A stretch of DNA of 54,177 nucleotides from an uncultured delta proteobacterium (GTDB taxonomy: Bacteria; Myxococcota_A; Polyangia; Polyangiales; Polyangiaceae): assembly GCA_903906315.1 (NCBI GenBank), contig CAIVJW010000159.1, positions 1 through 54,177 of the forward strand, written 5' to 3'. Positions within the stretch are counted from its first letter, which is position 1; each line of letters opens with the position of its first letter. Below the pieces are notes generated by a model that worked only from the letters and a program-made list of their open reading frames with translations, was not told the DNA's origin and searched no databases. This document shows, in pieces, positions 1 through 31,684 of this stretch. The position numbers and the translations under genes were made by a program.

Positions 1-236
1 CCGGTCGCGCCCCCGGCCCCCGCCGCGCCGCCCGCGCTCGTCGTGACCGCGCCCCCGGCGCCGCCCGCGCTCGCGGTTCCCCCGCTCCCCTGCCCGCCCG
101 CGCCGCCGGCCGACGTGGACGTCGCGACGCCCTGCCCGCCCGCACCCGAGCCGGCGACGGGGTCGCCCCCGCCGCAGCCGATCGCACCCGCCGCGCCGAG
201 GAGGAGACCGACCATACGGTGAACGATCGCGCTCAC
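1..236 (-). CDS. Gly/Ala-rich lipoprotein, N-terminal part (runs off the window)
   Basis: The reverse strand encodes a short signal peptide ending in an AIGC lipobox, followed by a low-complexity Gly/Ala/Ser/Thr linker that continues past the window edge. I chose a GTG start at 236 because it overlaps the upstream TGA as GTGA and has a GGAAAG ribosome-binding site about 8 bases before it; an ATG at 215 is the alternative. Such linkers typically hold a surface or secreted domain away from the membrane in Myxococcota. The functional domain is not in the window, so no role can be given. It is the second gene of a pair with the MopE-like lipoprotein, and the overlap suggests co-translation. Confidence 0.7.
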   Translation of the reverse strand, partial: MSAIVHRMVGLLLGAAGAIGCGGGDPVAGSGAGGQGVATSTSAGGAGGQGSGGTASAGGAGGAVTTSAGGAAGAGGAT

Positions 237-1888
237 GGGCAGCTCTTTCCGCAGACGCTGGTGACCTCGCTGACGCAGAAGCTGTCCCACGACGTCGAGC
301 AGCAGAAGCTGTCCTGCGCGCAGACGCTCTGCACGCAGTTGCCCTGGCCGGAGTCGCACCCGCTCACCAGCGACGACCCGGTCGAGCAGATCGGGTGCGA
401 GCACGTGAACCCGCCGCCGTTGCACGACTGGCCACAATAGGTCGGCACCTCACCCACGCAGATCGAGTCCCACGATCCCGAGCAACAGTACGAGTCGGCG
501 TTGCAGACCGCGGTCGCGCAGGCGCTGCAGGCCTTCACGAGCGCGAGGCCGCTGACGCAGACGTCGTGCGCGCACTGCCCGCCCCCGCAGCCGTTGTCGA
601 CGGCGCCGTTGCAGTCGTCGTCGAGCCCGTTGCCGCAGACCTCGGCCTTCGCCGCCTGGTTCTGCGTGCAGGAGAGCCCGCCGCCCTTGCAGGTCATCGT
701 GCCGGCGCTGCAGATGCCGGACAGGCCGGTCACGCAGGCGCCCCCGCCGCCGACCGCGCCGTCGTCGGGCACACCATTGCAGTCGTCATCGAGGCCGTTG
801 CAGGACTCGGGTGCGGCCTGGACCGACTGCACGCAGGACAGCGCCCCGTTCTGGCAGGTCAGGACGCCGGCCGCGCACGCGCCGAGCAGGCCCGTCGCGC
901 ACGCCGCGCCGCCACCCGGGTTGCCGTTGTCGGGCACACCGTCGCAGTCGTCGTCCTGGCCATTGCAGCTCTCCGCCCCCGGCACGACCTTCGGGACGCA
1001 GGCGAGCCCGCCCCCCGAGCAGGCCATCGTCCCGGCCGCGCAGGCGCCCATCAGCCCCGTCGAGCAAGCGACGCCCGCGCCCTGCACGTCGTCGACCTGA
1101 CCATTGCAGTCGTCGTCGAGGCCGTTGCACGTCTCGGCGGAGGGCGGCACCGTCGGCGCGCACTGCTCGGCGGTCGCGCCGTTGTCGGTGACGCACTGGT
1201 TCGTGCCCTTCTGGCACACGCCCGGCAGGCCGGTGTCGCAAGGCTGCCCCTTGCCGGGAAACAGCTCGTCGACGAGCTGATTGCAGTTGTCGTCGACGCC
1301 GTTGCACGTCTCGGCCTTCGGCGCGGTCGGCACGCACGACACGGGCTTGCCGCCTTCGCACGCCGGGACCGTGACGGCGCAGCCGCCGACTCCGCACGTC
1401 TGCTCGGGCAGGTCGTCCGCCTTGCCGTTGCAGTCGTCGTCGGCGCCGTTGCACTTCTCCTTCGCGAGGGGCACGACCTCACCGACGCACGCGCCCCAGG
1501 CCCCCGCCGCGTCGCACGTCTGCTTGCCACCCTTGCACGCGCCCACTCCCGCGGTCTTCGCGGGGCCGCTGTAGCAGTCTTGCTCCTGGCCCGCGTGGCA
1601 CGCGCAGCCGTCGTCGACGACGCCGTTGCAGTCGTTGTCGAGGCCGTCACACGCCTCGGCCGCAGGGACGCACGCCGCGCCGCCCGCGCCGCCGCGGCCC
1701 GTCTCGCCGCCCGCGCCGGTGGCTCCCGCGCCGAAGCCGCCCGCGCTCGATCCGCCGGTGCTCGTGGTGCCGCCCCACGCGCCGCCCGCGCCCTCGGGGG
1801 CGAGGTCCTCGATGGACGCAGGCGCCGGGGTACAGGCGGAGACCGACAAGGGCACGGCGAAGCACAGGGCAGCGAGCCGACGAAGCAT
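233..1888 (-). CDS. MopE-like metal-binding-motif lipoprotein (551 aa)
   Basis: The start at 1888 gives a signal peptide MLRRLAALCFAVPLSVSAC with a lipobox Cys and is preceded by GGGAGG; the open frame extends further upstream but without a sensible N-terminus. After a Gly/Thr/Ser linker come seven repeats of the type CNGxDDDCNGxxDD. These match the putative metal-binding motif family named after the copper-binding protein MopE. The C-terminus carries two Cys-rich repeats of about 50 residues, each with a CC-x(3)-WD-x(2)-CV pattern, probably disulphide-stabilised outside the cell. Role inferred: surface-anchored protein that may bind calcium or copper. No catalytic motif is visible. Confidence 0.85.
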   Translation of the reverse strand: MLRRLAALCFAVPLSVSACTPAPASIEDLAPEGAGGAWGGTTSTGGSSAGGFGAGATGAGGETGRGGAGGAACVPAAEACDGLDNDCNGVVDDGCACHAGQEQDCYSGPAKTAGVGACKGGKQTCDAAGAWGACVGEVVPLAKEKCNGADDDCNGKADDLPEQTCGVGGCAVTVPACEGGKPVSCVPTAPKAETCNGVDDNCNQLVDELFPGKGQPCDTGLPGVCQKGTNQCVTDNGATAEQCAPTVPPSAETCNGLDDDCNGQVDDVQGAGVACSTGLMGACAAGTMACSGGGLACVPKVVPGAESCNGQDDDCDGVPDNGNPGGGAACATGLLGACAAGVLTCQNGALSCVQSVQAAPESCNGLDDDCNGVPDDGAVGGGGACVTGLSGICSAGTMTCKGGGLSCTQNQAAKAEVCGNGLDDDCNGAVDNGCGGGQCAHDVCVSGLALVKACSACATAVCNADSYCCSGSWDSICVGEVPTYCGQSCNGGGFTCSHPICSTGSSLVSGCDSGQGNCVQSVCAQDSFCCSTSWDSFCVSEVTSVCGKSCP

Positions 1889-1973
1889 GAATCCTCCCGG
1901 GGAATGAGGCGATCTCGCAAGGGTCGCAGTCTTCCTCGCGCACGACAAGCGATCCGCGCCTCCCCGGGGGCGG

Positions 1974-4031
1974 TTACCGCCTGAACCGCTCGAAGAAGCC
2001 GCGCTTCTCGGGCTCCGTGCTCTCGGCGACGCCCATCTTCGCCAGGGCGGCGCGCACGGCCTCGGCGAGACCGGGGGCGACCGGCGCGCGACGCATGAAC
2101 CCGAACAGGCCGCGCTCGCCCTTCTCACCCTTCAGCAGCTCGGCGAGAACGGCCGCCGTCCGGTCCCGGTCGCTGCTGCCCTGACCGGGGTGGTCGCCGA
2201 GCATCCGGGCGCACACCGCGCGGAGCTCGGTCGGGCGCTCGCGGTCCTCGAGCAGCTCGAGCGCGCGGGCGCGGGCGAGGTCGGGCCGGCCGTGGCGCGT
2301 CGCGATCGCGGCCATCGCCATGGTCAGGATCTCCGGATCCGCGTCCTGCAGCGCGCGGGTCACGATCGACGCGGCCTGCGCGCTGCCGACCGCGTCCATC
2401 GCGACGATCGCGGCGAAGCGCACCTCGGCGTCCGCGTGGTCGACGTGCGGCGCGGCGACGTCCTCGAGCGAGGAGTCGGGGTGCCGCGCGCCGAGCGTGA
2501 GCAGCAAGCGCAGCGCGGGCGCCTCCAGGTTGGGCACGCGCAGCGCCGCGACGATGGCGCCGGGGGAGTTCATCCGGTCGAGCAGGTGATAGACGCGGTC
2601 CATCTGCGCGTTCACGCCCGACATCGCGAAGTGGGCGGCGACCGCCATGGCCCCCGGCTCGCCGATCGCCGCGAGCAGGTGCGCGAGCCCCTCGTCCTTC
2701 TCGGTCGCGTAGCGCGAGATGCACTCCTGGATCTCCTTCGTGGAGAGCATCTTGTTCAGCGCCGTCCGCGCCGGCGAGTGCCCGGCCTGCGCGGCGTGAT
2801 AAAGGCGCTCGGCGACCTCGGCGCACTCCTGGTACCGCCGGTTGGCGAAGTCGAGGCGCCCGAGCTTGCCGAGCAGCCCGATCGATCGCGGGTTGTCGAA
2901 GCGAACCTCGGGGAAGCGCCCCGAGGCGCGCTCGACGTGCAGCGCCTCGGCGAGGATCCAGTCCTGGAGATCGGCGGGCAGCTCCTCGAGCTTCAGGATC
3001 TCGTTCTCGTAGAGCATGCGGAGCACGGGCTCCGCCTCCGGCATGTGCTCGACCGACAGCCGCGCCGCGCAGAGCCCCACCGCCTCGCGCAGCGTCGACC
3101 CATCGACGCCCGCGTCGTCCGCCGCGAGCGCCTCGCAGAGCCGGCGGGTGAGGTCGATCGCGGGCCGCGGCGCCAGCGACTCGATGATGAGCGGCGTGAT
3201 CGGGATCTCCTCGAGCCCCTCGATGTGAGCGATGTCCTGCTGGATGCGGGACGCATTGAGGACGAGCTGCTTGAGCAGCTCCCCGTTGTTGATGGGGCGA
3301 ACGATGTCCTGAAAGATCTGGCGCTTGGCCTTGACGATCGCGGCGTGGCCGAGGTTCTTGAACATCGGCAGGAGGCGCAGGTCGCGGCGCAGGCGTGCGA
3401 GGCACATCCGGATTTGCCACGGCAGGTCGAAGTCGCGCGAGGCGACGTCGTTCGACAGCAGGACCGAGACGTTGAAGACCTGGTCGTCGAGGAGCGCCTG
3501 GCCGATGTCGAACTCGTGCCCTGGTGTCACGGGCCGGCTCAGCACCGAGACGAGCCCGATGAACTCCTTGAGCGTCACGCCGTTGCGGAAGGCCAGGAGC
3601 ACGAGGCTGTGCCGGTCGAAGTACTCGACGAACCGGGGGACGAAGAGCGAGTAGACGCCGGCCGGCATGATGTCCGACATGCGGAGTCGGCCGGCCCCGA
3701 GGCCGTCGACGAAGATCTCCGGCGGGGTCGTGCGGTTGAGCAGGTACGCGACCTGCGGGTTGTCCGCGAGGAAGTGGACGAGCATCTTGTAGAGGGGCTC
3801 GCCGACCTCGTGGTGCGCCGGGTGATCGGCCCCGTAGTAGGCCGCCTTGTTGACGCTCTGGACGAGCTCGCGGGTGAACTCCGAGAGCTGGTCCTTCTGC
3901 TCGCGCGAGAGCTTCGCGGCGCGGTCGGCGTCGTCGGGGGAATGGGCGCCGGGCGCGGCCTCGGGAGCCGTCGCTCCGTGGGGGGAAGCGGCGGTCGTCG
4001 CGCTGGCTGGATTGGTGGCTGGCCCCGGCAT
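1974..4031 (-). CDS. HEAT-repeat-like hypothetical protein (685 aa)
   Basis: Soluble protein with no signal peptide or membrane segment. The first 45 residues are Ala/Pro/Thr-rich and likely disordered. The rest is alpha-helical in character, and the C-terminal third (about residues 460-640) has paired helices with recurring DADPEIL and HADAEVRFAAIVAMDAVG stretches typical of HEAT or Armadillo repeats. The last residues are basic (FFERFRR). I do not recognise the N-terminal domain. Proteins of this build are frequent in Polyangia and usually act as scaffolds, but nothing here identifies a partner. The ATG at 4031 has an AGGATGG about 10 bases upstream. It stands alone between two lipoprotein genes on the same strand. 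Confidence 0.7.
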   Translation of the reverse strand: MPGPATNPASATTAASPHGATAPEAAPGAHSPDDADRAAKLSREQKDQLSEFTRELVQSVNKAAYYGADHPAHHEVGEPLYKMLVHFLADNPQVAYLLNRTTPPEIFVDGLGAGRLRMSDIMPAGVYSLFVPRFVEYFDRHSLVLLAFRNGVTLKEFIGLVSVLSRPVTPGHEFDIGQALLDDQVFNVSVLLSNDVASRDFDLPWQIRMCLARLRRDLRLLPMFKNLGHAAIVKAKRQIFQDIVRPINNGELLKQLVLNASRIQQDIAHIEGLEEIPITPLIIESLAPRPAIDLTRRLCEALAADDAGVDGSTLREAVGLCAARLSVEHMPEAEPVLRMLYENEILKLEELPADLQDWILAEALHVERASGRFPEVRFDNPRSIGLLGKLGRLDFANRRYQECAEVAERLYHAAQAGHSPARTALNKMLSTKEIQECISRYATEKDEGLAHLLAAIGEPGAMAVAAHFAMSGVNAQMDRVYHLLDRMNSPGAIVAALRVPNLEAPALRLLLTLGARHPDSSLEDVAAPHVDHADAEVRFAAIVAMDAVGSAQAASIVTRALQDADPEILTMAMAAIATRHGRPDLARARALELLEDRERPTELRAVCARMLGDHPGQGSSDRDRTAAVLAELLKGEKGERGLFGFMRRAPVAPGLAEAVRAALAKMGVAESTEPEKRGFFERFRR

Positions 4032-4177: not shown

Positions 4178-6316
4178 TCAGATGTGCGGCTTCGGCTGGC
4201 AGAAGCCGTCCAGGCAGATGTTCGTCTTGTCGCAGCAGTCGGCGCCCACCTTGCACGAGTTGCCCTCGGCGGAGCACTGCCCGGGAGGCGGCGGATCGCC
4301 GCACGAGAGCTTGCCGGTCTGCGGGTCCTTCAGGCACTGACCGTTGCAGCAGTCGACGCCGCTCGCGCAGTCCTCGCCGACGGCCTTGCACGGGTCGAGC
4401 GCGTAATACGCATTCTCGCTCTTGCCGCAGTCCTCCTGGCCGCGCACGTAGAACGGCGGGTGCGACGGGTCGACGCCGGGGACCGGCGGGTCGTCGACGG
4501 CGGTGATCCAGAGCTGCTGGCGGCTGGCGCCGACGAGGCGATTGCCATAATCGCGGCGCGTGATGAACACGATCCAGTAGTAGCCGCCCGCGCGGAGGGG
4601 AGCGAACACCGGGTTGAAGCTCTTCTGGCCCGGATCGCCGGCCTTGGCGAGCTCCTGGACCGACAGGCCGTCGGTCGACGTGAGCCAGAGCGTGCCCTTG
4701 TCGATGGATCGCGATCCGTAGGTCGGCCGCCCGTACGCGAGGTACTTCGAATCGGGGGAGAAGCTCGGGTACGCGGGGCGCCCGGCCCCGCCCGCCTGCG
4801 GGACGATCATCTTCGTGTTCGACACCGTGACGCCGTCGGCCGCGACGTCCGCGACCGCGAGGTAGCCCGTGGTCGCGTCGAACACCCAGCCGCCGCCGGA
4901 GAGGCCGCAGATGCCCGCGAGGAGCTTGCCGTCGGGCGACCAGGCGGGCTCGCCGCAGCCATTGCCCATCGCGTTCGGGTTGAGCACGGCGCCGCCGATC
5001 GCGTCGACGATCTGGAGCGTGGCATTCGCCGGCGAGAAGCCGGTGTTGTCACTGCCGAGGAGCTTGTCGCCCTTGTCGTTGTAGGCGGAGAAGATGTACT
5101 TGCCCGAGGGCTTCTGCGGGCTGATCTCGGCGTACGCGGACGGGTTCTGGTCGAGCGCGACGGTGTAGAGCGGCCCGTTTCCGTCGTTGAACTCGGCCGC
5201 CATGCGCTGGCCGTTGCGGCTGACGGTGTGGCAGCCGAAGCAGGCCCCCGGCTTGAAGAACTCGTCGGGCTGGTCGCTGTCGGGCTTGATGCGGAGGATG
5301 CGGCCCGTCGAGGCGTTGCCGCACTGGTCGGGGAGCTCCCAGTAGTAGATGCTGCCGTGGAGGCGGCCCTGAGCGACGTGCCAGGTCTGCTTCACGGGCT
5401 GGTAGGCCTGCCCGTTGCTGGCGCGCGCGAGCGAGACCAGGAGCGGGTCGACCTGCGCGCCCGCGCCGGAGCTCTCGACCGCGTCCCAGTCGGCCTGCGG
5501 AAGGAGCTTGCGCGCCGGCGGCGGCGCCGCGAAAAACGCCGTGTAGGAGTAGTACTTCTCGACGAGCTGGATCCGGTAGACGTCGCCGGCCTGCGTGCCA
5601 TTCCACTGCACCTCGGGGGCGAGCACGGCGAGCGGAAAGACCGTCTCGTCGAGCGGGTAGACGACGCTCATCGACGGGTCGGCGCCGACGGGTGCGTCGA
5701 AGAGGGCTATCTGCTGCGGGGCGAGGCCGGCCTCGTTCACCGTGTGGGTGACGAAGACCTCGACCGTCGTCTCGGCCTTCAGGTTCTGGTAGACGGCGAA
5801 GAGCTTGCCGATGCCGCCGACCTTGCCCGTGGGCGTGAACACGCCCGCCGCGTCGAGGTCGCCGATCTCCGGTCGGGTATAGGTGAAGGTCGTCTGGAGC
5901 GTCACGTCGGCGCCGTTGACGATCGCCTTGATCGGCTGCTTGGGGACGTTCTGATCGTCGACCTTGAGCTGGACGGGGGCGGGCACGATGACGAGGATCT
6001 GGGGCTTCTGGCCGCCCTGGCCCTGGCCGCCTTGCGCCGCGCCGCCCTGCGCCGCGCCGCCTTGCGCCGCGCCGCCCTGCCCCTGGCCGCCCGCCTGCGT
6101 GGCGCCGCCCTGCCCCGTGCCGCCCGCGTGCGTCGCGCCGCCCGCGTGGCTTCCGCCCGATCCGGTGATCGCCACGCCGCCCGCGCCGGTCTGCGTGCCC
6201 GTGCCGCCTCCGGTCGTTTCGTCGCCCGTCGAGCCATCCCCGAAGGCGCTGCTCGGCGTGCCGCCGCACGCGACCGTCACGATCGCGAAAAGGAGAACGT
6301 ATGCCCATCGTCTCAT
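4178..6316 (-). CDS. PD40/TolB-like lipoprotein with one haem c motif and Cys-rich tail (712 aa)
   Basis: The signal peptide ends in a VACGG lipobox (Cys 17), followed by a Gly/Gln/Ala linker of about 70 residues. A TolB/PD40-type beta-propeller region follows; blocks such as AWSPDGKLL and SFSPDSKYLAYG are the typical WD-like PD40 signatures. Near residue 359 a single CFGCH motif is a covalent haem c site, set in a CHTVS context seen in PD40 lipoproteins of Polyangia. The C-terminal 75 residues contain about 12 cysteines in DCCNGQC and DCCDKTN patterns, a small disulphide-rich module. Role inferred: outer-surface binding protein with possible electron-transfer capacity. The start lacks a clear ribosome-binding site. 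Confidence 0.75.
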   Translation of the reverse strand: MRRWAYVLLFAIVTVACGGTPSSAFGDGSTGDETTGGGTGTQTGAGGVAITGSGGSHAGGATHAGGTGQGGATQAGGQGQGGAAQGGAAQGGAAQGGQGQGGQKPQILVIVPAPVQLKVDDQNVPKQPIKAIVNGADVTLQTTFTYTRPEIGDLDAAGVFTPTGKVGGIGKLFAVYQNLKAETTVEVFVTHTVNEAGLAPQQIALFDAPVGADPSMSVVYPLDETVFPLAVLAPEVQWNGTQAGDVYRIQLVEKYYSYTAFFAAPPPARKLLPQADWDAVESSGAGAQVDPLLVSLARASNGQAYQPVKQTWHVAQGRLHGSIYYWELPDQCGNASTGRILRIKPDSDQPDEFFKPGACFGCHTVSRNGQRMAAEFNDGNGPLYTVALDQNPSAYAEISPQKPSGKYIFSAYNDKGDKLLGSDNTGFSPANATLQIVDAIGGAVLNPNAMGNGCGEPAWSPDGKLLAGICGLSGGGWVFDATTGYLAVADVAADGVTVSNTKMIVPQAGGAGRPAYPSFSPDSKYLAYGRPTYGSRSIDKGTLWLTSTDGLSVQELAKAGDPGQKSFNPVFAPLRAGGYYWIVFITRRDYGNRLVGASRQQLWITAVDDPPVPGVDPSHPPFYVRGQEDCGKSENAYYALDPCKAVGEDCASGVDCCNGQCLKDPQTGKLSCGDPPPPGQCSAEGNSCKVGADCCDKTNICLDGFCQPKPHI
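6031..6090 (-). repeat. 15-base tandem repeat in a lipoprotein linker
   Basis: Four consecutive 15-base units (the last one diverged) encode repeated AAQGG in the linker of the PD40 lipoprotein. Because the unit is in frame, slippage would lengthen or shorten the linker without breaking the gene. Confidence 0.8.
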
Positions 6317-6449: not shown

Positions 6450-8300
6450 TCAGTGGAAGGTGAGGCCCACGTAGGTGATGGGCGCGCCGGAGCCGAATGC
6501 GTCGACGGTGACGTCCTTGCCGGCGGGGAAGAGATCGTAGAGCTTCTTCATCGACCCGACCTCGTAGATCACGCCCTGCCACGGGACCGCCCAGACCGCC
6601 TGCTGGCCGTGCGTGATCGCGTACTCGAGCGCGTGATCCTTGCGCACCTTCGTCGCCTCGTCGGCGATGTCGGCGAAGGTCAGGTTGGTCTCGGCCCAGC
6701 CGTACCAGTGCGCGTAGTCGGGGTTCATGTGATAGGCCCCGTGCCACGTCTTGACCTGATCGTACTTGTACATCTTGAAGAAGAGCCGCTCGATCCTCGA
6801 CAGATCGCGGTAGAGCATCGACCCGCCGAGGAGGATGGCGCCGATCGCGTCCGGGTTCGCAGGGCGGGACTCCGGGCTCGGCGTGACGAGGCCGTCGTGG
6901 CTCAGCGCGCGAATGATGTCCTCGGCCTCGTGGGTGACGGACGCCGCGTTCACGTGCAGGCCGTCGGCGACCCCGAGGCGCGCCTCCGCGAAGGGCTTGT
7001 CGTGGCAGGGGCTGCACGCGCTCACCATCTCGGCGCGGCGCGCGGCGAGGACCTCGGGCGGGTCGACCACCTGCTTGACGACGCCGTCGAGATCGCCCGG
7101 AAATACCGAGTCCTGCACGCCGTCGGCGCCCGTCATGTCGTACGGCGCGCCCGGGTCGTAGGCCGGGTTCTCGTTCAAGGCGCCGTTCGCGAGGACGTAC
7201 GGCAGCTCGCCGGCGCGCGTGAACGAGACGTGCGTGTCGCGCCCGCCGACGGGCCCGAACGCCATGCCGAAGGACAGGTCGTGATCGGTGAAGAGGCCGT
7301 TCGGGCCCTGGACCTTGCGGCCCAGGTGGCAGGTCGCGCAGGTCGGGCCGCCCCCGACGTCGCCCTGGAGCGCCCAGCGGACGCCGTGCTTGGAGGACTC
7401 GTAGGCTTCGTATTGGGGATGATCGGGGCCCATGTGGCACGTGCCGCAGGCGAGCGGCTCGCGCGCCTCGCGGACGTGGAACGTGTGGCGCGCGTGGCAG
7501 CCGTCGCAGCGGGCCTCGGTGTCGTGGCACTGGGTGCACGTCGCGACGCCGCCCGAGAGCGGGTCGGCGCCCGAGCAGGGCGGCAGGTCGTCGTAGCGGC
7601 CGGCCTCGTAGACGCGCTGCATGCCGATCGCGTGGCGGTTCGCCTGGTGGCCCCGGTACTGGTCGGGGTGGCACTTGCCGCACGTGGCCGCGGTGGGCAT
7701 GGCGCTGTGGCCGGCGTAGTTGCCCATGTCGCCGCCGTGGCAGTCCTGGCACGACACGCTCGAGGCCATCGTGCTCGCCAGGTAGTCGGCGATGAGCTGC
7801 GGCTGCTTCTGCTGGTGGCAGCTCATGCACGGGTAGCTCTTGCCCACGAAGCCCTGGAAGACGAGGTCCTGCGTCGTCGGCACGCCGGCGAGGATCGAGA
7901 CGGTCGCGCGGACGTCCGGGTAGAGGCCCTGGTGCGCGGTCAGCTCGTACACGCCGACGGGCAGCTCGGCGAACGCATAGGTGCCGTCGATCCCGCTCAG
8001 GACCGGCGCGGCGAGCGGCGGCTCGAGGCTCACCTCGGCCGACCCCACGGCCATGCCGTCGACGTTCTGGGTGAGCGTGCCGGAGAGCGCGCCGACGGCG
8101 TCGCCCGGATCACCCTTGGGCCCCTTCGCGCCGAGCTCGCCCTTCGATCCGACCGCGCCGGGCGGGCCGACCTCGCCGCGCGCGCCCTGGGGCCCCGTCG
8201 GGCCCTGCGCGCCGGCAGGGCCAGCGTCCCCGGTGCAGGCGATCAGCAGGGCCGCCGCGATCGAGAGGACCGGGTGGACGGGAACGCGCCACGTCGTCAT
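6450..8300 (-). CDS. Octahaem HAO-family cytochrome lipoprotein with collagen-like stalk (616 aa)
   Basis: The start at 8300 follows GGAGG by 8 bases and opens a lipoprotein signal with lipobox LIAC (Cys 22). Residues 24-68 are about 15 uninterrupted Gly-X-Y collagen-like triplets. Residues 70-150 form a carboxypeptidase-regulatory-like beta sandwich. From residue 158 there are eight CxxCH haem motifs (158, 184, 207, 255, 265, 285, 321, 429). The surroundings, SKHGVRW before haem 7 and HGAYHMNPDYAHWYGW near residue 520, fit the hydroxylamine oxidoreductase/octahaem nitrite reductase superfamily. Members oxidise hydroxylamine or reduce nitrite, hydroxylamine or sulphur oxyanions; the substrate here is unknown. 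Location inferred: lipid-anchored, periplasmic or on the outer surface. No electron-carrier gene adjoins except the monohaem lipoprotein. Confidence 0.85.
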   Translation of the reverse strand: MTTWRVPVHPVLSIAAALLIACTGDAGPAGAQGPTGPQGARGEVGPPGAVGSKGELGAKGPKGDPGDAVGALSGTLTQNVDGMAVGSAEVSLEPPLAAPVLSGIDGTYAFAELPVGVYELTAHQGLYPDVRATVSILAGVPTTQDLVFQGFVGKSYPCMSCHQQKQPQLIADYLASTMASSVSCQDCHGGDMGNYAGHSAMPTAATCGKCHPDQYRGHQANRHAIGMQRVYEAGRYDDLPPCSGADPLSGGVATCTQCHDTEARCDGCHARHTFHVREAREPLACGTCHMGPDHPQYEAYESSKHGVRWALQGDVGGGPTCATCHLGRKVQGPNGLFTDHDLSFGMAFGPVGGRDTHVSFTRAGELPYVLANGALNENPAYDPGAPYDMTGADGVQDSVFPGDLDGVVKQVVDPPEVLAARRAEMVSACSPCHDKPFAEARLGVADGLHVNAASVTHEAEDIIRALSHDGLVTPSPESRPANPDAIGAILLGGSMLYRDLSRIERLFFKMYKYDQVKTWHGAYHMNPDYAHWYGWAETNLTFADIADEATKVRKDHALEYAITHGQQAVWAVPWQGVIYEVGSMKKLYDLFPAGKDVTVDAFGSGAPITYVGLTFH

Positions 8301-8606
8301 GGGGACCGCCTCCGTGCTTCGCGCGCCATGCGCACGGCTCACCGTAGGGGCCCGCGCGGCGCGTGAGCAGGGGGCGGGCGCGCACGGCTGACATCCGTCA
8401 GCGGAGGGGCCAAGCGGGACGGATTTTCGGGCGCCCGATCGGGCGCTACCGGGCCCGGGACCGCCCGGGAGCGGCGGGGCCCCCGGGATCCGAGGCCTTT
8501 TTGGCCTCCCGGGGGCCGTTGCGTTCACGAGGCGGCCCTCGCGGCCGAGGCGTGCTAGAAGGGCTGCCCCGAGCGTCGGCGCGATCATGCGCCTCCTGGA
8601 GAATCC
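8301..8606. other. Divergent intergenic region upstream of the octahaem gene and rpsU
   Basis: No gene is visible in these 306 bases. They must hold the promoters of both divergent genes. A TAGAAG at 8556, preceded by TGC, is a possible -10 element for rpsU, but no convincing -35 lies at the right distance. The main structure is the long hairpin listed separately. Confidence 0.6.
8478..8517. other. Strong hairpin upstream of rpsU
   Basis: Nine base pairs (GGCCCCCGG with CCGGGGGCC), a five-base bulge on one side, then six pairs (GAGGCC with GGCCTC) closed by a five-T loop. It lies 90 bases before the rpsU start and between divergent genes, so it does not end either one. It could be a leader structure if transcription starts upstream of it, or an insulator between the two promoters. 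Confidence 0.6.
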
Positions 8607-26504: not shown

Positions 26505-28891
26505 CCTCGCTCCTCCACGCCGAGCACCTCGAAGAGGGTGGCGTACTCGAATGCATCCGCCAGGCGGCGGAGCTCCCGCGCGACCGCCGGGGCGGCCCCG
26601 TCGAGCGCATCCATCTCGCGTGAGATCTGCTCGGTGTACCCACCCTCGAGCGCAGCCACGAGCGCCTCGCGACGCTCCACGGGCAGCGCGGCGACGGCCG
26701 CACGATCGAGCAGCGTGGCGCCCGACGAGACCTGCTCGTGGCCGCCGCCGACGACCTCGAACCGGGCCGGCGTGAGGCGCGCGATCTCGCGGAACACGCT
26801 CGCCTCGCGCACCGGCTTGCCGACGAACCCGTCGACCCCGGCCGCCAGCGCCTGCTCCCGGTCCTGCTGGAGGGTGCTCGCCGACACGATGACGAACGGC
26901 ACCGCGGCGCCGCCGGGGAGCTCCCGACTGCGCGCCATCACGTCGACCCCGCTGCCGTCCGGCAACCCCAGGTCGCAAAGCACGAGGTCACAGGCCTCCC
27001 TGGCGAAGGCCGCGACGCCGTCGGCCGCCGTGGACTCCGAGCGCACCTCGAGCCCCACCGCGTCCAGCATGCGCGTCAGCATCAGCCGGCTGTCGACGTC
27101 GTCCTCGACGACGAGGACCCTCACGCGCGGGGAATCGGACGAAAGGCCGACGACCAACGGCTCGCCCGCGCCGACCGCCTGGTCGTCGGTGAAGTCCGCC
27201 TCGAAGTCGAAGCGAAAGCTGCTGCCGACCCCGACCGTGGACGCGACGGCGACGTCGCCTCCCATGAGGCGCGCGAACCGCCGGCTCACGGCGAGCCCGA
27301 GGCCCGTGCCCGTGCGCGCGGCGTCGGGGGCCACCTGGACGAAGGGCTCGAAGATGTTCCCGATCTGGTCGTGCGGGATGCCGATCCCGGTGTCCTCGAC
27401 GCAGATCGACAGCCGGCAGCGCCCCAGCGCGACCAGCACGACCGTCGCGGTCAACGTGACGGCGCCCCCCTGCGCGAACTTCATCGCATTGCCGAGCAGG
27501 TTGATGAGCACCTGGCGGACCTTGCCGGCGTCGAACTGGATCCGACGAGGCAGGTCGGGCGACCGCTCGACGCGGAAGGCCACGCTGCGCTCGGCCGCGC
27601 GCAGCCGGAACATCCGTTCCATGTCGGTGAGCACGTCACCGAAGTCGGCGACGGTGAGGTCGAGCGCGTCGGTGCCCGACTCGATCCGCGACATGTCGAG
27701 CACGTTGTTGATGATCGTGAGGAGGTGCTCGCCGCTGCGGTCGATCGTCTCGAGGTACTCCCGCTGCCGCGCCGAGAGCCCTGCCTCGCGCAGGAGCAGC
27801 TGCGTGTAGCCGAGCACCGCGTTCATCGGCGTCCGGATCTCGTGGCTCATCGCCGCGAGGAACTGGCTCTTGGCGCGGCTCTCGGCCTCGACGTGCGCGA
27901 GGCGCTCCTTCTCGGCGGTCGCGTCGGCGCGCCGGAGCGTGCCGAGGACCATGTCGGGCAGGAGCGCGAGCTGCTCGGGGAGGTCGTCGCGCAGGACGCC
28001 TTCCCGGCGCCAGGCGAACGCGACGAGTCCCGTCACGAGGCCCTCCTCCATCATCGGCAGCAGCAGAGCGGCGCGGACGCCCTGCTCGACCAGTCGATCC
28101 CGGTCGGCCGAGAGCGCATCGGGCACCGCCTCGATCCGAGCCAGCGCGACGCCCTCGCCGTTCGCGATGCCGGGGAGGGACCCGAGGTTCATCAGGTGGG
28201 TGAGCTGTCCCGGGCGACGCCCCTCGACGGCCGCGTGCCACTCCATCGCGCCGGCATTCGCGCTCGGCGCCAACGGCTCGGCCTGGCGGAGCCTCGCGCA
28301 GGCGTGGCTCGCGCCGACGAACTGCGCGACCTTGCCCAGCGTGGCCGACACGCCGGCTCGCCCCTCCACCGCGCTGCGCTGCGTGAGATCCTTCGACACC
28401 GCGCCGAGCAGCTTGCGGAAGCTGTTGCGACGGGCGAGCTGATCGGCCTTCGCCTCGAGGGCGTGCGTGCGCTCGTGCACGGAGGCCTGCAGCTCGGCGC
28501 GCATGCGCGCGAGCTCGAGGAACACCTTGACCTTGCCGCGCAGGATCACCGGGTCGACCGGCTTGACGAGGTAATCGACGGCGCCCGTCTCGTAGCCGCG
28601 GAAGCGGTGGGCCTCGTCGCCGTAGGCGGCGCTCACGAAGATGATCGGGAGCCCCGACGTCGACGGGTTGCCGAGCAGCAGCTCCGCGAGCTCGTAGCCG
28701 TCCATGCCGGGCATCTGGACGTCGACGAGCGCGAGCGCGAACTCGTGCTGCAGCGACAAGGCCAGGGCCTCGTCGCCGCTCATGGCCTTGATGATCTTCG
28801 CCGGCACGTCCTTGAGCGTCTGCTCGAGGGCGAACAGGTTGTGCTTCCTGTCGTCGACGATGAGGATCAGGATTTCGGCGGTCGGGGGCAT
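26501..28891 (-). CDS. REC-GAF-HK-REC hybrid histidine kinase (796 aa)
   Basis: Soluble; no membrane segment. Domain order: receiver (ILIVDDRKHNLFALEQ, phospho-Asp in LVDVQMPGMDG, YLVKPVD), coiled coil, a GAF-like domain (about 170-330), coiled linker, phosphoacceptor domain MSHEIRTPMNAVLGYTQLL, ATPase domain (TGTGLGLAVSRRFA), second receiver (VLVVEDDVDSR, DLGLPDGSG, FVGKPV) and a C-terminal helical tail of about 65 residues with a regulator-like character. The receiver at the N-terminus means the kinase is itself controlled by an upstream phosphodonor. Start at 28891 chosen because MPPTAEILILIVDD begins the domain; the frame stays open 96 codons further but codes Arg-rich sequence overlapping the divergent cyclase. 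Confidence 0.9.
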   Translation of the reverse strand: MPPTAEILILIVDDRKHNLFALEQTLKDVPAKIIKAMSGDEALALSLQHEFALALVDVQMPGMDGYELAELLLGNPSTSGLPIIFVSAAYGDEAHRFRGYETGAVDYLVKPVDPVILRGKVKVFLELARMRAELQASVHERTHALEAKADQLARRNSFRKLLGAVSKDLTQRSAVEGRAGVSATLGKVAQFVGASHACARLRQAEPLAPSANAGAMEWHAAVEGRRPGQLTHLMNLGSLPGIANGEGVALARIEAVPDALSADRDRLVEQGVRAALLLPMMEEGLVTGLVAFAWRREGVLRDDLPEQLALLPDMVLGTLRRADATAEKERLAHVEAESRAKSQFLAAMSHEIRTPMNAVLGYTQLLLREAGLSARQREYLETIDRSGEHLLTIINNVLDMSRIESGTDALDLTVADFGDVLTDMERMFRLRAAERSVAFRVERSPDLPRRIQFDAGKVRQVLINLLGNAMKFAQGGAVTLTATVVLVALGRCRLSICVEDTGIGIPHDQIGNIFEPFVQVAPDAARTGTGLGLAVSRRFARLMGGDVAVASTVGVGSSFRFDFEADFTDDQAVGAGEPLVVGLSSDSPRVRVLVVEDDVDSRLMLTRMLDAVGLEVRSESTAADGVAAFAREACDLVLCDLGLPDGSGVDVMARSRELPGGAAVPFVIVSASTLQQDREQALAAGVDGFVGKPVREASVFREIARLTPARFEVVGGGHEQVSSGATLLDRAAVAALPVERREALVAALEGGYTEQISREMDALDGAAPAVARELRRLADAFEYATLFEVLGVEERG

Positions 28892-29126
28892 TCGGCCTCG
28901 CGAGTCGATGCGGGAAACAAGCCTGCGGCGGGCGGCGCCCGTGCAACGGTCATGCCCGCTCGGTGGGCTACGGATCGGGGACTTCCTGAGGATCGGCCAC
29001 CCGAGCCTGGGAGGCCGCTCGCGGGCACACGCACCCGCGCGGGGTGAGCGCACCCGCATACGACGCAACGCGCACGGTAGTACGGGACGCGACGGCTCGC
29101 GCGACTTATACCTGTGCGGCCTCGCA

Positions 29127-30206
29127 ATGGATGATCGAACGACGGCCACGGGCGCCCCCCGCGCCCACACGCTGCTCATCGTGGACGACGTCCCCGCGAA
29201 CGTCGCCTTGCTCGTGCATTCGCTCGGCGACCGCTACACGCTGCGCGTCGCCACCTCGGGCGAGCGAGCGCTGCACCTCTGCGCGAACGGGCCACCCCCC
29301 GACCTCGTCCTGCTCGACATCATGATGCCGGGCATCGACGGCCTGGAGGTCTGTCGTCGCCTCAAGGCGAGCCCGCGCACGGCAGGCGTGCCGGTGATCC
29401 TCGTGACGGCGCGCACGCAGCCGAACGACGAGGCCGCGGGCTTCGACGCGGGCGCGGTCGACTACGTGACGAAGCCGATCAGCCCCGTGGTCGTGCGCAA
29501 GCGCGTCGAGCTGCACCTCGAGCTGCGCGACGCGCGGCGCCGCTTGGAGCAGCTGAGCGGCCACTACTCGGCGTACCTGGCGCCCGAGCTCACGGAGAGC
29601 ATCCGGCGAGGCGAGATCGGCCGTGCGATCGGCAGCCAGCGCAAGACGCTGAGCGTGCTCATGTCCGACATCCAGGGCTTCACGCGACGCACCGAGCAGC
29701 TCGGCCCCGAGGAGATGACGGCGCTGCTGAACGCCTACTTCGAGGACATGACGCGCATCGTGCGCAAGCACGGCGGCACGCTCGACAAGTTCATCGGCGA
29801 CGCGATCCTGGTCTTCTTCGGCGATCCCACGACGCGCGGGGAGGCGGAGGACGCGCGCGCGTGCGTCGAGCTCGCGCTCGAGATGCAGGCGCGGCTGCCC
29901 GAGCTCAACGAGCGCTGGAAGCGGCTCGGCGCGGCCGAGGACCTGGCGGTGCGCATCGGCGTCTCGACCGGCGCGTGCACCGTGGGCAACTTCGGCAGCC
30001 CCGACCAGCTCTCGTACACGGTGCTCGGGACGCCCGTGAACCTGGCGGCGCGCCTCGAGGGACACTGCCCTCCCGGACGCGTGCTCGTCGCGGCCTCGAC
30101 GGTCGAGCTCGTACATAGCCGGTTCACCTGGGAGGCGACGGAGCCTCTCTCCGTCAAGGGGCTGAGCCAGCCCGTGCACGCCTGGCTGCCGGTCGCGACG
30201 GACTGA
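29127..30206 (+). CDS. REC-class III adenylate/guanylate cyclase (359 aa)
   Basis: Receiver at residues 14-130 (LLIVDDVPANV, phospho-Asp in LLDIMMPGIDG, YVTKPIS), a helical linker, then a class III cyclase domain: MSDIQGF (first metal Asp), KFIGDAILVFFG (second metal Asp, purine-contacting Lys), TVGNFGS and YTVLGTPVNLAARLE (Asn and Arg of the transition state). All catalytic residues are present; Lys together with Thr in LGT favours ATP as substrate. It would make cAMP in response to phosphorylation by one of the adjacent kinases. It is divergent from the REC-GAF kinase; 235 bases lie between the two starts. Two cyclic-nucleotide-binding proteins are encoded 1.6 kb away. Confidence 0.92.
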   Translation: MDDRTTATGAPRAHTLLIVDDVPANVALLVHSLGDRYTLRVATSGERALHLCANGPPPDLVLLDIMMPGIDGLEVCRRLKASPRTAGVPVILVTARTQPNDEAAGFDAGAVDYVTKPISPVVVRKRVELHLELRDARRRLEQLSGHYSAYLAPELTESIRRGEIGRAIGSQRKTLSVLMSDIQGFTRRTEQLGPEEMTALLNAYFEDMTRIVRKHGGTLDKFIGDAILVFFGDPTTRGEAEDARACVELALEMQARLPELNERWKRLGAAEDLAVRIGVSTGACTVGNFGSPDQLSYTVLGTPVNLAARLEGHCPPGRVLVAASTVELVHSRFTWEATEPLSVKGLSQPVHAWLPVATD

Positions 30207-30215
30207 CCGCGCCGT

Positions 30216-30827
30216 TCAACCGCCGCGCGCGCGCCCGGGCGCCGCCGCGGCTCGGTCGAGGCGCACCACGAGGTCGAGGATCCCGTCGGGCGCGAGCACG
30301 CGGGCGGAGACCCCGGCGGCGACCGCGAGCTCCGGCATCCGCGGGAAGCTGGCCGTCCGCGGGTCCTGCGCGACGGTCAAGCCGCCGTGCGCGCGCACGC
30401 TCCCGAGCCCGGCCACGCCGTCCTCGTTCGCGCCGGAGAGGAGGATCGCGCACAGGCCGCGGCCGTACGCCCGCGCGGCGGACTCGAACAGCACGTCGAT
30501 CGCGGGCCGACAGTAGTGGACCTTCGCGTCGATCGAGAGGGCGATCGTGCGCGCGCGCTCGACGAGCAGGTGGTAGTCCGCGGGCGCGACGTGCACGCGC
30601 CCGGCCGCGATCGGGGTCTTGTCGCGGGCTTCGGTCACCGGGACGCGCGACCTCGTGCCGAGGTGATCCGCGAGCTGCCCGCGGTCGCCTGCGTGGAGGT
30701 GCACGCAGATCAGGACGGGGAGCGAGAAGCTGGCCGGCAGCTCCGCGAGCAGCCCCACGACGATCTCGACCGCGCCGGCGGAGCCGCCGATCGCGATCGC
30801 CTCGCACGGCGCGTAGTCCGGCGTCAC
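30216..30827 (-). CDS. cheB: CheB-type methylesterase domain without receiver (203 aa)
   Basis: Consists of the catalytic domain only: AIGGSAGA with the nucleophile Ser, VHLHAG with the catalytic His and LSGANEDGVAGL with the catalytic Asp, followed by the usual EDPRTASFPRMPE-type strand (here QDPRTASFPRMPE). Classical CheB has an N-terminal receiver that holds the esterase in check; it is absent, so activity is not controlled by CheA-type phosphorylation. A GTG start at 30827 overlaps the cheR stop as GTGA. It removes the methyl groups that CheR adds, so the pair is a self-contained methylation/demethylation module. Confidence 0.9.
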   Translation of the reverse strand: MTPDYAPCEAIAIGGSAGAVEIVVGLLAELPASFSLPVLICVHLHAGDRGQLADHLGTRSRVPVTEARDKTPIAAGRVHVAPADYHLLVERARTIALSIDAKVHYCRPAIDVLFESAARAYGRGLCAILLSGANEDGVAGLGSVRAHGGLTVAQDPRTASFPRMPELAVAAGVSARVLAPDGILDLVVRLDRAAAAPGRARGG

Positions 30828-31684
30828 GGTCGCGCCACCCGCTTGAAGATGCCTGCGCGATCGTCGACCACCGCGAGCCCGAGCGCGGCGGGCTCGCAGC
30901 CGAGGTCCTCCTTCACTCCGAGGCACAGGAAGCCTCCGCGCACGAGGCTGTCGGCGAAGATCGCGACGGCGCGCGCGTGGAGCGCGCGGTCGAAGTACAC
31001 GAGCAGATCGCGGCAGACGACGAGGTGCATCTCGCCGAGCGCGCCGTCGGCCGTCAGGTCGTGCTGCATGAACGAGATGGGGGTGCGGATCTCGGGCGCG
31101 ACGATCGCGGCGCCGTAGCTGACGCGGTAGTAGTCCGAGAACGGGTGCGCGCCGCCCGCCTCGAGGTAGGCCTGCGTGAAGGCCCGGAGGCGATCGGTCG
31201 GGTAGATCCCCTCGCGCGCCTTCGCCAGCGCGACCTCGCTCGCGTCGGTCGCGTAGATCGTCGATCGCGCGCCAAGGCCCGCCTCCGCGAGCACGATGGA
31301 CGTCGCGTACGCCTCCTCGCCGGCCCCGCAGCCGGCAACCCACGCCTTCACGCGCGGCCAGGTCTTGAGGGCCGGAATCACGCGCTCGCGCAGCGCCGAG
31401 TGGAACGCGGGGTCGCGGAACATCTCGCTCGGGCGGGCGCCGAGCGCCTCGATCGCGGCCGACGCGAAGACCTCGTCGCGGAGCACGCGGGGGATGAGGT
31501 CGGCGATCGAGGCCGCGCCCGCGGACTCGACGAGCTCGATCACGCGCCGCTCGAGCGAGGCCTGCGCGAACGAGCGAAAATCGCGTCCGTAGCGGCGACA
31601 GATGGCCTCCAGCAGGAGCGAGATCTCGATCGACGCGAGCGCTTCGCGCCCCGATCCCTGCCGCTCGTCGCGCGTGGCGGCCAC
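30824..31684 (-). CDS. cheR: CheR-type methyltransferase, second copy (286 aa)
   Basis: Same fold as the copy at 20097: LLLEAICRRYGRDFRSFAQASLERR, SAM loop VAGCGAGEEAYA, ATDAS, VVCRDLLVYFD and GGFLCLGVKE. It differs clearly in sequence (roughly half of the residues by eye), so it is an old paralogue and not a recent duplication. Start GTG at 31684; there is no strong ribosome-binding site. Immediately coupled to cheB. With no receptor, CheA or CheW in the window, the substrate is unknown; CheB/CheR pairs next to hybrid kinases occur in other Myxococcota and may act on atypical receptors. Confidence 0.9.
   Translation of the reverse strand: MAATRDERQGSGREALASIEISLLLEAICRRYGRDFRSFAQASLERRVIELVESAGAASIADLIPRVLRDEVFASAAIEALGARPSEMFRDPAFHSALRERVIPALKTWPRVKAWVAGCGAGEEAYATSIVLAEAGLGARSTIYATDASEVALAKAREGIYPTDRLRAFTQAYLEAGGAHPFSDYYRVSYGAAIVAPEIRTPISFMQHDLTADGALGEMHLVVCRDLLVYFDRALHARAVAIFADSLVRGGFLCLGVKEDLGCEPAALGLAVVDDRAGIFKRVARP

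Follow-up and report, generated by a model that had tools for sequence, protein, structure and literature searches.

The gene at 6450–8300 of the window (the whole stretch of 54,177 nucleotides analysed here) lies on the minus strand, as do all of its features given below. Stop codon included, it specifies a 616 amino acid protein made up of a lipoprotein signal, a collagen-like stalk, a CarboxypepD_reg-like domain and an octahaem cytochrome. These coordinates had been predicted correctly to the base. The gene starts with ATG, just 5' of which a probable ribosome-binding site, GGAGG, was located (8309–8313), and its third-position G+C is 96%. The N-terminus is a signal peptide (aa 1–22; 8235–8300) closed by the lipobox LIAC, in agreement with the original prediction; Cys22 is invariant in alignment A1, is followed by Thr at the +2 position and is predicted from the sequence to be lipidated. 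Next comes the stalk (aa 24–68; 8097–8231), for which about 15 Gly-X-Y triplets had been proposed. There are exactly 15, all perfect and unbroken, including one KGE and one KGD, and the stretch matches PF01391 (Collagen) at 7.5e-7, with 29.3 bits against a cut-off of 27.2.

Between stalk and core lies a beta-sandwich (aa 72–147; 7860–8087) which, as had also been proposed, resembles the carboxypeptidase-regulatory domain. Its match to CarboxypepD_reg (PF13620; 4.4e-7, 30.6 bits) falls just below the cut-off of 32.3; relatives pass clearly, L076 among them with 46.3 bits. The beta strands reached a pLDDT of approximately 90 in a first, full-length model, which was built from 14 sequences and, with a pLDDT of 54 overall, was set aside for the core. 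The HAO-type core (aa 153–563; 6612–7844) contains the eight CxxCH motifs that had been counted in it, at aa 158, 184, 207, 255, 265, 285, 321 and 429, and C-terminal long helices. Past the end of the HAO fold there is a clade-specific C-terminal tail (aa 564–616; 6453–6611) ending in TYxGxTFH, here TYVGLTFH.

Two trivial sources of such an architecture were considered. A misplaced start or a frame-shift artefact is ruled out by the ribosome-binding site, the third-position G+C and the existence of stalked homologues. A chance Gly-X-Y run in G+C-rich DNA is ruled out by shuffling: when the residues of the protein were shuffled 20,000 times, no run exceeded 7 triplets, against 15 in the stalk, and 7 is also the longest run elsewhere in the window.

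The next gene downstream (4178–6316, minus) is 134 bases away on the same strand and possibly co-transcribed. Its product is a lipoprotein with a Gly-rich repeat, a PD40-type propeller and one CxxCH; the gene is not conserved beside the HAO-type gene in relatives. Further along, at 236–2128 (minus), there is a long lipoprotein-like open reading frame with many repeats of the DNDCDG/DDDCNG type. No conserved operon partner was found among the window and the 13 loci compared. At one of these (L067:5769–7730, plus) the gene directly upstream of the stalked HAO codes for a lipobox protein with broken Gly-X-Y stretches, nine CxxCH motifs and Asp-rich repeats resembling calcium loops; such a neighbour occurs at this locus only.

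The octahaem core and its haem 4 site

Membership of the core in the HAO family, which had at first been proposed from its motifs, was borne out by profile, sequence and structure. The PF13447 (Multi-haem_cyto) profile gave 102.2 bits against a cut-off of 21.9 (E-value 3.9e-29). A phmmer search of solved structures returned Nitrosomonas europaea HAO (1e-28), then anammox HAO-like enzymes and hydrazine dehydrogenase (HDH), and the order of the CxxCH motifs, with numbers 4 and 5 close together, is that of the HAO family. The AlphaFold2 model of the core (aa 146–616, from a 97-sequence alignment; pLDDT 83.2, pTM 0.83) superimposed on nine HAO-family entries with Z scores of 22.0–25.8 over 312–351 residues, C-terminal long-helix bundle included. 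A predicted core lacking the HAO haem arrangement would have spoken against the assignment; with the fold being that of HAO, this check came out in its favour. The best structural match was the reducing HAO-like Kustc0457/0458 of Kuenenia (PDB 6h5l; Z 25.8), which like HAOr is one of the reductive HAO-like enzymes of anammox bacteria, followed by Kuenenia HAO (25.1) and N. europaea HAO (24.3); NrfA and the octahaem nitrite reductases gave approximately 11. The core therefore belongs to the HAO family in the wide sense.

Kustc0457/0458 shares the octahaem HAO fold and 28% identity over the aligned part with the window protein. The Kuenenia enzyme, however, pairs with a second subunit, and none is encoded beside the window gene. 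N. europaea HAO (1fgj, 4fas) likewise has eight haems, an Asp-His pair near haem 4 and long C-terminal helices. It has no collagen stalk, and the solved HAO-like structures matched are, unlike the window protein, without lipobox, collagen or CarboxypepD_reg. The HAO structural alignments stop at model residue 413–423, which makes the last 50 residues an addition. This tail is mostly confident in the AlphaFold2 model, is present in the stalked clade described below and is absent from its unstalked relatives. HAO-family enzymes have seven distal His ligands and one five-coordinate haem; conserved non-motif histidines which are candidates for such ligands are H223, H272, H305, H340, H524 and H531, and within the clade also H198. 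In the Geobacter/Nitrospirota branch of the family (L091–L105, L108, L111 and others) most relatives carry a ninth CxxCH.

The original prediction left open whether the active site matches oxidative or reductive members. The haem 4 motif is CTQCH (aa 255–259; 7524–7538), which profile alignment places on the catalytic haem motif CTMCH of HAO, and Asp293-His294 (7419–7424) aligns with Asp267-His268 of N. europaea HAO. Both the motif and the pair are invariant in 97 of 97 rows, suggesting that substrate chemistry has been kept. The situation differs at the residue which, in N. europaea HAO, is cross-linked to haem 4 (Tyr467). The stretch containing it corresponds to HMNPDYAHWYGW (aa 524–535; 6696–6731), where profile alignments set His531 opposite Tyr467, with a one-residue gap nearby and with Tyr529 and Tyr533 close to the aligned place. 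The adjacent Trp532 is invariant in all 97 rows. Many Hao proteins have Trp at the key Tyr position, and absence of the Tyr is taken to favour reductive catalysis (PMC8940962). In a second analysis the reductive state is represented by His at the key site, the reductive HAO-like class of anammox bacteria lacks the cross-link Tyr and works in the reductive direction, and reductive enzymes form the large majority outside anammox bacteria (PMC12758564). Since the cross-link Tyr is absent at the aligned place, the enzyme looks to be of the reductive type.

The opposite direction, a surface hydroxylamine (or hydrazine) dehydrogenase feeding electrons into the cell, would draw on the same family, which holds both HAO and HDH. 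Moreover, OcwA of Thermincola potens, a cell-surface multihaem cytochrome of the wider NrfA/HAO superfamily, is reported to reduce nitrite, to reduce hydroxylamine as well as oxidise it without a P460 haem, and to act as terminal reductase towards acceptors outside the cell (PMC6703420). Against such an oxidative enzyme stand the missing Tyr and the HDH equivalog model of NCBIfam, which gave only 67.5 bits against a cut-off of 900, and we regard it as very improbable. The AmoA model (PF02461) had no match, but a control was equally silent.

Shortly before the haem 4 motif there is an extra Cys outside any CxxCH (Cys242; 7575–7577). It is found in all eight Myxococcota members of the stalked clade and in no other of the 97 rows; the sister branch has a Cys approximately nine residues earlier. 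Cys242 is a possible haem ligand or cross-link.

The stalked clade and an apparent shared tether

Full-length close homologues, counted as long high-scoring matches, are scattered among the Myxococcota: they were found in five of the 318 genomes of the class, our own included, and in none of the 58 nearest-relative genomes. Six of the 379 genomes of the phylum had homologues at E-values up to 1e-40. A scan of genome contigs gave further homologues, including some from Phycisphaerae. In a tree of 97 core sequences, the window protein falls within a clade of 12 members (SH-aLRT 100, stem length 0.97). Far from all lacking collagen, 11 of the 12 have a lipobox followed by 9, 15, 15, 17, 19, 20, 22, 23, 24, 33 or 40 Gly-X-Y triplets, the count starting in four rows at the Gly just before the lipobox Cys, and a clade member found later (L173) is stalked as well. 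By these comparisons the stalk is conserved in the clade and is no start-site artefact. In the twelfth, L081, the lipobox is followed by a linker that is not collagen, which indicates that the core can do without a collagen stalk.

Rows outside the clade have Gly-X-Y runs of at most 5 triplets, except L054, which has 12 triplets and a DUF7151 spacer (genome G044, contig 25; the same gene as L009). Here a lipobox and a stalk of GTD repeats, gained separately and independently, are joined to an octahaem protein that branches elsewhere in the HAO tree.

Whatever the length of the stalk, 76–83 amino acids separate it from the core in the Myxococcota branch; in the sister branch the distance is 9 amino acids and the CarboxypepD_reg domain is missing. 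A variable repeat joined to a fixed adaptor is what would be expected of a spacer. Reckoned at 0.286 nm per residue, the 15 triplets (45 residues) of the window protein would extend approximately 13 nm and the stalk of L076 up to approximately 34 nm, provided that they are triple-helical. The Gly-X-Y stretch might alternatively be a flexible Gly-Pro-rich linker which never forms a triple helix, the rest of the protein being as proposed below. The window protein has only 15 triplets, L081 manages without collagen and prolyl hydroxylation of collagen is generally regarded as missing from bacteria, all of which would suit a linker of this kind. A merely flexible segment is, however, at odds with the strict and unbroken Gly periodicity over 9–40 triplets in 11 clade members and with the KGE and KGD motifs, as well as with the trimeric nature of the family, oxidative HAO enzymes being trimers or multiples of trimers (PMC12758564). 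We therefore consider it unlikely.

The N-terminal part of the protein recurs on other cytochromes. Contig 244 of the same genome (G000; L166:4599–8249, minus) codes for a 1217 amino acid protein in which a lipobox and a long collagen-like stretch precede a body of the OmcA/MtrC family (TIGR03507, 244 bits against a cut-off of 209.3; also PF22112 and PF22113); nine plain CxxCH motifs were counted in the protein. The decahaem cytochromes of this family are lipid-anchored multihaem proteins, and the contig 244 copy shares the lipobox-collagen start with the window protein, but their haem fold is different, the window protein scoring 17 bits against the same TIGR03507 cut-off. A third protein of this kind in the genome, on contig 94, combines a lipobox, collagen, two CarboxypepD_reg domains and a multihaem part. 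It lies beside a cluster (L158, L159; bases ~16000–40000) in which multihaem cytochromes occur with NapC-like, cytochrome-b-fused and NrfD-like genes; one open reading frame there (~28691–30950) has at least 33 CxxCH motifs in approximately 750 amino acids.

When the N-terminal 150 residues were used as query against the relatives and the own genome, all nine matches reaching aa 131 or beyond were multihaem proteins, and matches covering collagen alone were mostly without haem motifs. One of the latter, the 222 amino acid piece L065, whose alignment extends to aa 130, is free of haem motifs. From these alignments the lipobox-collagen-CarboxypepD module looks like a shared tether for multihaem cytochromes. 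PgcA of Geobacter sulfurreducens, a predicted surface lipoprotein cytochrome, also has a long repetitive spacer (PMC5732950). Its repeats are PTx rather than GXY, it has three haems, and no relation to the HAO fold has been shown.

Cell location and proposed role

An outer-surface location had been suggested from the collagen part alone. The strongest pointer to it is that this genome itself encodes an OmcA/MtrC-family protein with a start of the same kind, the family being known for cell-surface reductases; multihaem cytochromes of relatives that begin in this way add to the case, which is still an indirect one. In E. coli, Asp at the +2 position of a lipoprotein favours retention in the inner membrane; by this rule the window protein, with Thr, should go to the outer membrane. 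We infer that it probably sits at the outer cell surface.

The same reductive enzyme might instead face the periplasm, from the inner leaflet of the outer membrane or from the inner membrane, with the Gly-X-Y stretch as a spacer within that compartment; it would then draw on periplasmic cytochromes for the electrons with which to detoxify nitrite, NO or hydroxylamine. The HAO-family enzymes known so far are periplasmic, those relatives in the tree that have no stalk carry plain secretion signals, and L173, alone among clade members, has Asp directly after the lipobox Cys. A lipobox by itself leaves the exposed face unfixed, and no dedicated trans-membrane partner adjoins the gene. MtrB-type porins (PF11854, a family which omits other porin-cytochrome conduits) had no match in this and four related genomes, and the DmsE/MtrA-type model (TIGR03508) gave matches below the cut-off only. 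On the other hand, the 40 triplets of L076, some 34 nm if triple-helical, are long for a periplasm, and the lipobox-collagen start on the OmcA/MtrC-family protein of this genome also tells against an internal location, which we hold to be distinctly unlikely.

That HAO-type enzymes are usually plain periplasmic proteins is correct for HAO proper. Surface work as such has precedent in OcwA and in a further multihaem cytochrome of the wider superfamily, OmhA of Carboxydothermus ferrireducens (6qvm), which is reported to lie at the cell surface (PMC7829351). Both have nine or eleven haems and Gram-positive hosts, OcwA is dimeric, and neither is known to have a collagen stalk. The window core matches them weakly (profile 5e-11 to PDB 6i5b, which we take to be OcwA; fold Z 8.8 to 6qvm), and they are remote relatives outside the stalked clade.

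Their existence bears on another reading, in which the protein is a surface electron conduit: a terminal reductase in the manner of OcwA, serving metal oxides, shuttles or partner cells, which has kept the HAO fold and no longer needs N-oxide turnover. The occurrence of the module on other multihaem cytochromes and the large multihaem cluster on contig 94 agree with this. N-cycle partner genes, moreover, were not found near the gene at the loci compared. Hcp (PF03063) had no match in five genomes and NrfA (PF02335) a full, strong match in only one of the genomes (G061, with an in-frame TGA), so that there is no nitrite-ammonification route around the enzyme. The invariance of the Asp-His pair and the haem 4 motif in all 97 rows speaks against it, suggesting as it does that substrate chemistry has been retained, and we rate such a conduit as a serious possibility, albeit somewhat improbable.

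The explanation which we favour, and consider on balance probable, is that the protein belongs to the reductive type of the HAO family and stands, anchored by lipid, on a collagen stalk at the outer surface. The signal peptide and lipobox would anchor each chain N-terminally in the outer membrane, the Gly-X-Y stretches of three chains would wind into a short collagen triple helix, and the CarboxypepD_reg domain would act as an adaptor between stalk and octahaem core. Electrons would arrive from other surface or outer-membrane multihaem cytochromes and be spent at the open haem 4 on reducing an extracellular small N-oxide, be it nitrite, NO or hydroxylamine. Shuttles or metal oxides may also receive electrons from the core, as they do from OcwA. 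Core and stalk are well matched, since HAO-family enzymes form trimers and a collagen helix needs three chains. Taken further, this suggests a trimeric HAO-type enzyme on a homotrimeric collagen helix with three lipids, an N-oxide reductase kept ~13 to 35 nm away from the cell and connected to extracellular electron transfer, the stalk being a tether that can be exchanged among the surface multihaem cytochromes of Myxococcota and some Planctomycetota. We put this fuller version forward as a reasonable possibility, stopping short of calling it probable.

Taken singly, the HAO fold, lipoproteins with collagen-like parts and cytochromes at the cell surface are all known. A search of open-licence papers did not turn up the three combined in a conserved clade, nor anything on point about collagen in conjunction with multihaem or c-type cytochromes. 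Nitrification, anammox and nitrite ammonification depend centrally on enzymes of the HAO family, which are regarded as periplasmic. That a clade has conserved both lipobox and collagen stalk implies a move of HAO-type chemistry to the cell surface, and an enzyme type of the nitrogen cycle thus seems to have been adapted to a task outside the cell. Collagen, which in bacteria is usually discussed as a part of adhesins, is suggested here as a length-adjustable tether for redox enzymes, and the lipobox-collagen start offers a sequence handle with which to find surface cytochromes in Myxococcota genomes. At the surface, HAO chemistry could connect the nitrogen cycle with extracellular electron transfer in Gram-negative bacteria, a connection which OcwA makes in its Gram-positive host.
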